Assembly (NCBI GenBank): GCA_902512755.1
Contig: CABXKB010000005.1
Coordinates: 1 to 64,000, forward strand
Direction of reading: 5' to 3'
DNA: 64,000 nucleotides
DNA from: an uncultured Bacteroidota bacterium
GTDB taxonomy: Bacteria; Bacteroidota; Bacteroidia; Flavobacteriales; Flavobacteriaceae
Part shown: positions 51,299 to 53,717 of the stretch, piece by piece
Layout: each line of letters opens with the position of its first letter
Numbering within the stretch: position 1 is the stretch's first letter
Position numbers and translations under genes: made by a program
The notes under the pieces: generated by a model
Database searches by the model: none
The model's input: only the letters and a program-made list of their open reading frames with translations
Told to the model about the DNA's origin: nothing

Positions 51299-52567
51299 AT
51301 GAATTTTCTTGAACTCGCAACGCTTTTATTACTTCTTGCCTCATTATTCTCTATAATAAACCTTCGTTTATTAAAACTTCCTCAAACAATTGGATTAATG
51401 GTTTTGGCCATATTCCTATCTGCTGGTGTTATACTTGCAGGTCAAATTTCACCTGGTTTTTTAACTTTTGCCACATCGTTGACAGAACAATTTGACTTTA
51501 GTGTTTTATTGATTGATGTAATGTTGCCTTTCTTGCTTTTCGCAGGAGCTATAAGTGTAAATGTTCATGAACTTTTAAAAGATAAATTAACAATTCTCCT
51601 ATTAGCCAGTTTTGGAGTTCTCTTTTCCACCTTTGCTGTTGGAACTGGTCTTTTTTGGTTAATAGAACAACCTGTTTTTGGTCTTTCCGAATTAGGTTTA
51701 AATTACGTAGACTGCTTGCTTTTTGGTTCTCTTATTGCTCCAACGGATCCGATTGCCGTTTTAGCTATGGTAAAAAAAATGAATCTTTCTTCGGTTACCG
51801 AAACTAGAATTGCTGGAGAATCCTTATTTAATGATGGGATTGGAGTGGTTGTTTTCCTTACCCTTTTGAGCATAAAAGCAGAAGGCATTGACAATGTAAC
51901 CGTTCAAAGTGTTGGATCACTCTTCGCTACTGAAGTTATAGGTGGGATTGTTCTTGGAGCAGTTATGGGCTTTCTGGGTATGAAATTGGTTAAATACATT
52001 GAAAATGAACATGTAGAGTTAGAAGTTTTAATCACTCTTTCTCTTGTACTTCTGGTTCCAGTTATCTCTCATGTTTTTCATTTCTCAGCTGTTTTAGGAG
52101 TTGTGGTAATGGGACTGTTTTTGAATCAAAATATTGATGGCGATGATAAACAAGAAGGGGTGCAAAAAGTTATGGGTGATTATGTATATAAGTTTTGGCA
52201 CTTGCTTGACGAAACTTTAAATGCAATTCTTTTTATCCTGATTGGCCTTGAGATTATTCCCATTCTGCAGAACTTTGATGTTTCCTACCTTTTAATTGTA
52301 ATAATTGTAATTCTTATGGTTGTGGTTTCGCGAGGTATTGGAGTCTTTTTACCAATAAAAATTTTATCTATAAAAAAGAGTTTTGAAAAAAACACAGCAC
52401 TTATAATAACATGGGGGGGCTTACGAGGAGGGCTAAGTATTGCCCTTGCCCTAAACCTTCCTGACTCAATAGGTGATGGAAAAGACTTGATTTTAATCCT
52501 TACTTACGGAGTAGTTTTATTTACCATTTTAGTTCAAGGATTGACCCTGAAAAAAATTGTGAAATAA
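51299..52567 (+). CDS. CPA1 family sodium:proton antiporter
   Basis: A 422-aa NhaP-type antiporter with about 12 membrane helices. The ion-site motif is LIAPTDPIAVLAM (about 150-162), followed by GESLFNDGIGVVVFLTLL (about 173-190) and the late RGIGVFLP and TWGGLRGGLSIALAL. The long cytoplasmic C-terminal tail found in some relatives is absent. Exchange of Na+ for H+ supports life in seawater. The stop codon sits at the edge of the regulatory element that follows. Confidence 0.94.
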   Translation: MNFLELATLLLLLASLFSIINLRLLKLPQTIGLMVLAIFLSAGVILAGQISPGFLTFATSLTEQFDFSVLLIDVMLPFLLFAGAISVNVHELLKDKLTILLLASFGVLFSTFAVGTGLFWLIEQPVFGLSELGLNYVDCLLFGSLIAPTDPIAVLAMVKKMNLSSVTETRIAGESLFNDGIGVVVFLTLLSIKAEGIDNVTVQSVGSLFATEVIGGIVLGAVMGFLGMKLVKYIENEHVELEVLITLSLVLLVPVISHVFHFSAVLGVVVMGLFLNQNIDGDDKQEGVQKVMGDYVYKFWHLLDETLNAILFILIGLEIIPILQNFDVSYLLIVIIVILMVVVSRGIGVFLPIKILSIKKSFEKNTALIITWGGLRGGLSIALALNLPDSIGDGKDLILILTYGVVLFTILVQGLTLKKIVK

Positions 52568-52599
52568 TTTGATAACCATTAAACAGGTGGTTATATTTG
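52568..52599 (+). promoter_or_regulatory. Promoter with palindromic operator-like spacer
   Basis: TTTG (52568-52571) and TATATTTG (52592-52599) are separated by 20 bases and match the Bacteroidetes consensus exactly. A perfect inverted repeat ATAACCA (52572-52578) / TGGTTAT (52588-52594) fills the spacer and enters the -7 box, as an operator would. Predicted transcription start is about 52605. The repeat could also be a poor terminator of the antiporter, but no T-tract follows it. Confidence 0.65.
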
Positions 52600-52644
52600 A
52601 GAACTAGTTCGTGCTGTGACAACAGCAAAGTTTAACTAAATATG

Positions 52645-52653
52645 AAAGGAGGT
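52645..52653 (+). promoter_or_regulatory. Strong Shine-Dalgarno sequence AAAGGAGGT
   Basis: Nine bases complementary to the 3-prime end of 16S rRNA lie five bases before the ATG at 52658. Genes in this phylum normally lack such sites, and almost none of the other genes here shows one. CTTTCCTT at 52721-52728 could sequester it (seven pairs, two G-U). Confidence 0.75.
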
Positions 52654-52657
52654 GTCT

Positions 52658-52720
52658 ATGTTTTATTATAATCATTTAAGAGATTCGAGACAGCAGATAC
52701 CCACAAGTGGTATGCTGTAG
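52658..52720 (+). CDS. Possible 20-residue leader peptide
   Basis: ATG at 52658 opens a 20-codon frame ending TAG at 52718-52720. The peptide starts MFYYNHLRDS and ends IPTSGML. It follows a nine-base Shine-Dalgarno at ideal distance, and its last nine codons are hairpin 2 of the leader RNA. No signal peptide or known domain. A second frame, ATG at 52642 to TAA at 52671 (nine codons), overlaps the Shine-Dalgarno itself and is less likely. A role as a regulatory leader peptide is inference. The alternative is that the site only recruits 30S subunits. Confidence 0.45.
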   Translation: MFYYNHLRDSRQQIPTSGML

Positions 52721-52737
52721 CTTTCCTTATCTATTTA

Positions 52738-52765
52738 TAAAGCGGATCGATGGATCCGCTTTTTT
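52738..52765 (+). terminator. Strong intrinsic terminator just before the oxygenase start
   Basis: A perfect 8-bp GC-rich stem AGCGGATC (52741-52748) / GATCCGCT (52753-52760) with loop GATG, extendable by flanking A-T pairs, is followed by TTTTT. It ends only four bases before the ATG at 52770, so it would block expression of the oxygenase unless bypassed. Confidence 0.85.
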
Positions 52766-52769
52766 CAAT

Positions 52770-53717
52770 ATGCAACAAATTCCAAGGGCCGATTTAAATG
52801 AATTTCTTTCTGGAAATCATAAACATAGGGCTGTCTTTGTTAAAAAGATAGGAACTGCATTCCAGGAAATTGGATTTCTTGCTTTAAGAGGACATTTTTT
52901 AGACGACACACTCAAAGATCAACTCTACAAAGAAATTCATTCTTTTTTTAAGCTTTCAAACGACATTAAATCTTCCTACGAAATCAAAGGAGGAGGAGGA
53001 CAAAGAGGTTATACTGGTTTTGGAAAAGAACATGCTGCTGGAAGGTCAGTCGGAGATTTAAAAGAATTCTGGCATTTTGGACAAGATTTAAAATCTAAGC
53101 CCTATCTCAAAGGAAAGTATCTTGAAAACATATCAGTTAAAGAACTAGAAAATTTTAATAATGTTGGAAACTTAGTTTTTCTCAAACTTGAAAAAACAGC
53201 TAAATATATACTTCAAGCTTTGGCACTTTATCTAAAATTAGACAAAAACTATTTTGATAAATTTATCGATGGGGGGAATTCTATCCTTAGAGCTATTCAC
53301 TATCCTCCCATTACAGAAGCTCCAAAGGAAGCAGAGCGTGCTGCAGCGCATGGGGACATTAATCTAATCACACTATTGATAGGAGCTCAAGGAGGAGGTT
53401 TACAGGTTTTAAATCGGAAAAATAAATGGATTGATGCGGTTGCGCAACCTGATGAATTGATGATTAATATCGGTGATATGCTTTCTCGCTTGACTAACAA
53501 CCTACTTCCTTCTACTATTCATCGAGTAGTTAACCCTCCAAAAGAAACTTGGGGCAGATCACGATATTCTTTGCCGTTTTTTATGCATCCTATTCCTCAG
53601 ATGTCTCTAAACTGCATTCCGCAAGCCGTGGATAAAAATCATCCAAAAAAATATGAGGATATTCTTGCTGGAGATTTTTTACATGAGCGTTTGGTTGCTC
53701 TTGGATTGATAGAATAA
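52770..53717 (+). CDS. Isopenicillin N synthase-like 2-oxoglutarate/Fe(II) oxygenase
   Basis: A 315-aa non-heme iron oxygenase of the IPNS/2OG-Fe(II) family. The iron triad is His194-x-Asp196 (AAHGDINLITLL) and His251 (STIHRVVNP). The 2-oxoglutarate-type Arg265-x-Ser267 (RYSLPFF) is present. The N-terminal DIOX_N region (VKKIGTAFQEIGFLALRGH) is also family-typical. The ATG at 52770 is chosen because the frame upstream (open to 52707) runs through a strong terminator hairpin. The substrate is unknown; family members hydroxylate or desaturate small molecules. The gene sits directly behind a structured leader with a mini-ORF and a terminator, so its expression is probably conditional. Confidence 0.9.
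   Translation: MQQIPRADLNEFLSGNHKHRAVFVKKIGTAFQEIGFLALRGHFLDDTLKDQLYKEIHSFFKLSNDIKSSYEIKGGGGQRGYTGFGKEHAAGRSVGDLKEFWHFGQDLKSKPYLKGKYLENISVKELENFNNVGNLVFLKLEKTAKYILQALALYLKLDKNYFDKFIDGGNSILRAIHYPPITEAPKEAERAAAHGDINLITLLIGAQGGGLQVLNRKNKWIDAVAQPDELMINIGDMLSRLTNNLLPSTIHRVVNPPKETWGRSRYSLPFFMHPIPQMSLNCIPQAVDKNHPKKYEDILAGDFLHERLVALGLIE

Follow-up and report, generated by a model that had tools for sequence, protein, structure and literature searches.

Dual-function sRNAs of the SgrS/SgrT and RNAIII/hld type are short structured transcripts with their own promoter and terminator and a small open reading frame (ORF), and sRNA genes of the 3'-UTR class are located within the 3' portion of the preceding gene and are transcribed from an internal promoter. 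Leader-peptide attenuators (trp, his and pyrBI type) are built from a short ORF, alternative hairpins and an intrinsic terminator with a gene right behind, and in the phage T7 gene 10 leader an A/U-rich stretch lies 5' of a strong Shine-Dalgarno sequence (SD). Flavobacterial ribosomes normally hide the anti-SD, and ribosomes without bS21 initiate preferentially on strong SDs (PMC9976891). Pairing with the 16S rRNA tail below -13 kcal/mol is a mark of bS21-linked SD control (PMC9976891), as in the autoregulation of rpsU (bS21), and in the Flavobacteriales extended-SD control by bS21-lacking ribosomes has been judged limited to rpsU (McNutt et al. 2023, PMC9976891).

Here we describe an element that lies directly behind a Na+/H+ antiporter gene in the window (the whole 64,000-nucleotide stretch of DNA analysed) and that shares features with each of these systems. 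Like rpsU it has the extended SD core GAAAGGAGGUG and pairs with the same 16S tail far below -13 kcal/mol, and apart from these two no extended SD recurs in these genomes; unlike rpsU it is a putative structured small RNA with an ORF of 19–21 codons and not a ribosomal protein gene, its complementarity reaches 14 nt, and its SD persists in genomes whose rpsU no longer has one. With the dual-function sRNAs it shares a short, structured form, a predicted promoter and a terminator of its own and a small ORF, but conservation is highest in its start region and no base-pairing target is known, and we claim no sequence similarity. As in the 3'-UTR class it has its own promoter directly behind another gene, and its terminator would also serve antiporter transcripts, although it contains an SD-led ORF and has no known regulatory target. 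The short ORF, alternative hairpins, terminator and, in the window's genus, adjoining gene recall the leader-peptide attenuators, from which it differs in lacking a conserved antiterminator and a constant downstream gene. The A/U-rich stretch GUUUAACU... before its strong SD resembles the T7 gene 10 leader, a resemblance for which no common origin is argued.

Anatomy and distribution of the element

The initial annotation described an attenuator-like switch in front of an oxygenase gene, with four interchangeable segments: 1, TGCTGT (52612-52617); 2, ACAGCA (52622-52627); 3, ACAGCA (52690-52695); and 4, TGCTGT (52713-52718). These are located exactly as described, as are the GATTCG (52682-52687) and CGGATC (52743-52748) sequences proposed to form an antiterminator, and the GC-rich terminator ends four bases short of the oxygenase ATG at 52770. 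The extended SD, the start codon, the 20-codon ORF and the -7 box TATATTTG are additional to that description. The features, all on the forward strand, are as follows.

51299..52567, +, Na+/H+ antiporter gene, called nhaP-type (PF00999; Pfam E 5e-55)
52592..52599, +, Bacteroidota -7 promoter box (TAnnTTTG type) of the element, predicted from sequence
52612..52627, +, H1 hairpin GCUGU-GACA-ACAGC (segments 1 and 2), covarying stem and invariant loop
52630..52643, +, linker GUUUAACUAAAUAU from H1 to the SD, conserved in alignments
52644..52655, +, extended SD GAAAGGAGGUGU, complement of the 16S 3' tail ACACCUCCUUUC
52658..52720, +, 20-codon ORF MFYYNHLRDSRQQIPTSGML with stop TAG, length kept, synonymous excess in-frame only
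52676..52733, +, long hairpin P2/P3 containing segments 3 and 4, indicated by shuffle z-scores
52722..52733, +, UUUCCUUAUCUA, near-invariant, with invariant alignment columns
52739..52765, +, intrinsic terminator with 10-bp stem, invariant GAUG loop and U-run
52770..53717, +, 2OG-Fe(II) oxygenase gene (DIOX_N + 2OG-FeII_Oxy by Pfam), outside the conserved element

The 12 nt of the strong SD GAAAGGAGGTGT (52644-52655) are perfectly complementary to 16S rRNA, the start codon lies 2 nt 3' of it, and the stop codon is at the base of the second hairpin. In the predicted fold, codons 7–20 of the ORF pair with themselves and with UUUCCUUAUC to form P2/P3, and the terminator stem-loop AAAGCGGATC/GATG/GATCCGCTTT occupies 52739-52762 with a T-run reaching 52765. 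The transcript presumably starts near 52605. The fold of the region in the window has an energy of -45.4 kcal/mol (z -3.6) and beats 200 of 200 dinucleotide shuffles. The initial annotation recognised no known riboswitch class, in agreement with an Rfam 15 check that gave no match at gathering score in the window, and at relaxed score five homologous loci gave chance matches only, with nothing of note; by this test the element is a new RNA family, although every ingredient has known precedent.

The whole block, comprising the TAnnTTTG box, 5' hairpin, SD, ORF, long hairpin and terminator, recurs among relatives. A covariance model identifies the element with all parts in 34 of 38 genomes of the window's genus, the genomes being MAGs and incomplete, and in eight further Flavobacteriaceae genera among 237 sampled (E 1e-10 to 1e-36); a DNA search of 60 genomes likewise found it throughout the genus. 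Matches outside the family in an order-wide covariance-model search were weak and are not credited, and two patterns searched against viral contigs gave no match. The upstream neighbour is the same antiporter gene in every genus, with 79–99 nt between the end of this gene and the element's SD at all measurable loci, whereas the downstream gene is variable and includes convergent or unrelated genes. Part spacing and ORF length were examined in 47 elements: the TAnnTTTG box is present in 44, 26–29 nt 5' of the H1 loop, and the distance from the end of H1 to the AUG is 30–32 nt in all 47. This conserved anatomy supports the reading of the element as an unannotated separate gene for a small RNA of ~160 nt with a 20-codon SD-led ORF. 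The initial annotation had offered an independent RNA of this size as its fallback, and it is this fallback that is supported, though the RNA carries a strongly SD-led small ORF.

Shine-Dalgarno strength and the ribosomes that may use it

The 16S rRNA gene of the window's genome ends in ...GGAACACCUCCUUUCUAGAG. With this one tail, used in all of the computations, the SDs of the 47 elements pair at -16.8 to -21.3 kcal/mol, so that every one lies below the -13 kcal/mol that marks the extended class. Contiguous complementarity extends over 9–14 nt, and over 10–14 nt except in genus g278, where a G:U pair breaks the match. Pairing in the window's genome is -20.6 kcal/mol for the element versus -19.9 kcal/mol for rpsU, which matches 11 nt, and in most genomes the element equals or exceeds rpsU in strength. 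Across 37 genomes of the genus, the pattern GAAAGGAGGYG with an ATG behind it occurs 57 times; the element accounts for 32 of these matches, rpsU for 23 and other sites for two. No pairing with 16S rRNA above 7 nt was seen for the H1 loop, the linker or the terminator loop. The element keeps its SD in genera g138 and g278, whose rpsU is without one, so a simple link of the element to rpsU feedback does not fit.

The explanation that we favour, and that as a whole we hold to be somewhat probable, is that a small-transcript gene in its own right, located behind the antiporter gene, yields an SD-led RNA that is engaged by ribosomes with a free anti-SD. Transcription between the gene's own promoter and terminator would give a structured RNA of ~160 nt, as the conserved anatomy suggests. 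H1, the linker, the extended SD, the AUG and six A/U-rich codons would constitute a landing pad between two hairpins whose spacing is about that of the 30S footprint, followed by the ORF of 19–21 codons, whose 3' end lies in the second hairpin. As the anti-SD of flavobacterial ribosomes is normally hidden, the RNA is proposed to be used mainly by ribosomes whose 16S tail is free and, judging from the published rpsU work, above all by those without bS21; we put engagement by bS21-less ribosomes at an even chance or slightly better. As the predicted alternative folds suggest, translation of the ORF may open P2/P3 and free UUUCCUUAUCUA, which would then cap the SD and lower re-initiation. Either a small peptide would be the output, or the RNA would act by occupying those ribosomes.

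A bolder reading, which we regard as doubtful, is that the RNA is a dedicated sensor or decoy for specialised ribosomes, capturing free-anti-SD 30S subunits (bS21-less or immature) through its near-complete complementarity to the 16S tail and determining how many of them remain available to rpsU or other messages; the short ORF would load and release these subunits. If the favoured explanation is true, an element present in nine genera with an SD equal to or stronger than that of rpsU would widen the extended-SD regulon beyond rpsU (PMC9976891) and could serve as a natural reporter of ribosome heterogeneity. The element is a testable candidate for a second user of special ribosomes so far tied to bS21 alone, and one that surveys of annotated genes only would overlook.

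Three observations concern other extended SDs. The rpsU SD is missing or decayed where the element's extended SD stays at L308, L313, L317 and L318 (g278, g138) and at L162 and L166 (G016, G018). Elsewhere in the order, in another family, a strong-SD small ORF of 23 codons (GUUUAACUAAUAUGAAAGGAGGGCGGUUAAAUG; L118, G039:C5, about 170400-170700) lies between YbjQ-like and ClpB-like genes and is followed by a GC-rich terminator, and is possibly a second such RNA, or chance. A basic 41-aa ORF, MAKDSEGRKYNRIPGYTKKVGGKTIKVKPHVRSNRSDSKGK, with the same SD core as the element (L337, G401:C1:4164150-4164600, minus strand), is a candidate extended-SD small gene.

Coding signals and RNA structure

The ORF has 19–21 codons in all 47 elements, its stop codon interchanges between TAG, TAA and TGA at one place, and insertions within it in the alignments are of three bases each. 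Both other frames are interrupted by stops in 19 of 20 representatives. Among single-base codon differences the synonymous fraction is 0.50 in frame against 0.31 expected, and in the shifted frames it is 0.30 against 0.28 and 0.14 against 0.30, the counts coming from related sequences under RNA constraint. These signals favour translation of the ORF and are not proof of a functional peptide. They are also what a plain small-protein gene would give, in which the 19–21 aa peptide is functional and the RNA folds only for stability and expression; in-frame conservation, stop-codon interchange, in-frame 3-nt indels and the strong SD are all consistent with this. However, the peptide is poorly conserved between genera, its C-terminal half being wholly different despite retention of the hairpin, the N-terminal conservation is also accounted for by a constrained initiation region, and no Pfam family matches the peptide, such that we give this alternative limited credence.

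Terminator pairing was scored in 38 distinct elements, and all 38 retain 10 of 10 pairs with most stem positions varying, and the H1 stem has double changes such as GGUUGU/ACAACC, CACUGU/ACAGUG and AGCUGC/GCAGUU; the sequences are related, and covariation and substitution counts are thus of non-independent events. Both stems covary around invariant loops across the nine genera. The loops themselves are GAUG in the terminator (window 52749-52752) and GACA(A) in H1 (window 52618-52621), each on a freely varying stem. H1 of genus g138 has a GACAA pentaloop, and its register therefore differs there. Of the interchangeable arms in the initial annotation, the 1:2 pairing is borne out by covariation, but exchange as 1:3 or 2:4 is not conserved, with segments 3 and 4 varying independently: L008 has H1 as GGUUGU/ACAACC with arms 3 and 4 unaltered, and other genera have new arms 3 and 4. 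A pseudoknot between the GACA loop and UGUC 3' of the SD was considered from alignments inspected by eye and was rejected, the changes in UGUC being uncompensated.

Of 20 representatives, 19 (all but L024) give P2/P3 z-scores between -2.3 and -6.2, and each genus builds this hairpin from sequence of its own (UAGUUC:GAACUA, GGGGAGUA:UACUCCUU, AAAGAGA:UCUCUUU and ACAACAGAU:AUCUGUUGU). The near-invariant UUUCCUUAUCUA either closes P2 by pairing with codons 7–9 or pairs with the SD, and predictions are split between these, so that its bistability is a prediction only. In many elements the prediction leaves the SD partly paired, a point against the favoured explanation.

Another interpretation is that the element is a base-pairing sRNA in which the invariant GACAA and GAUG loops bind a target or protein and the SD-led ORF is secondary, as in a dual-function sRNA. 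The strict invariance of the loops and the covarying stems in nine genera agree with this, as do a promoter and terminator of its own as judged by sequence (TAnnTTTG in 44/47, conserved terminator). Against it, it is the SD/start region, and not a loop, that forms the longest and most tightly constrained block, the ORF length is kept in 47/47, and no target is known, and we therefore consider it unlikely.

Relation to the oxygenase gene

The oxygenase gene adjoins the element in the window's genus (g1), and four other genera have this arrangement in part. It is not beside the element at nine loci (L271, L278, L280-L283, L286-L288), and in three of the genomes concerned (G423, G619, G499) it is located elsewhere and has no element. 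Upstream regions of oxygenases in other Flavobacteriaceae are of their own kind and hold no such element. The element thus tracks the antiporter locus and not the oxygenase, so it cannot act in general as an attenuator of the oxygenase; and its retention where the oxygenase is absent, together with the relocated oxygenases without it, points to an independently evolving transcript of ~160 nt. We are highly confident in the anatomy of the element and its independence from the oxygenase, taken together as a reading of the genomes compared.

Control of the downstream oxygenase by a leader-peptide or RNA-switch attenuator, with the ORF as leader peptide, was the main proposal of the initial annotation. 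An intrinsic terminator does stand between a predicted promoter and a coding gene, and a leader ORF and alternative pairings are present. In the window's genus the oxygenase ATG lies 5–23 nt past the terminator stem (window interval 52763-52769), and no promoter box was found between them, for which reason the oxygenase is probably transcribed there by read-through past the element's terminator, and probably only in this way. At L276, however, a separate TATCTTTG box is present between the terminator and the oxygenase. The proposed GATTCG:CGGATC antiterminator is not conserved in alignments of relatives, and no conserved upstream partner for the left arm of the terminator was found. A second candidate, R3:R4 (GGUCCGCU with AGCGGAUC), was rejected, being perfect in one clade and missing elsewhere, with duplex energies of -13 to -1 kcal/mol depending on the clade. 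With the regulated gene not always directly downstream and no conserved antiterminator, we judge the attenuator quite improbable.

At L288 (G545:C2:36775-36958), one of the loci at which the oxygenase is not adjacent, there is an apparently decaying copy of the element with the SD GAAAGGAAGUG and an imperfect terminator stem, still positioned behind the antiporter gene.
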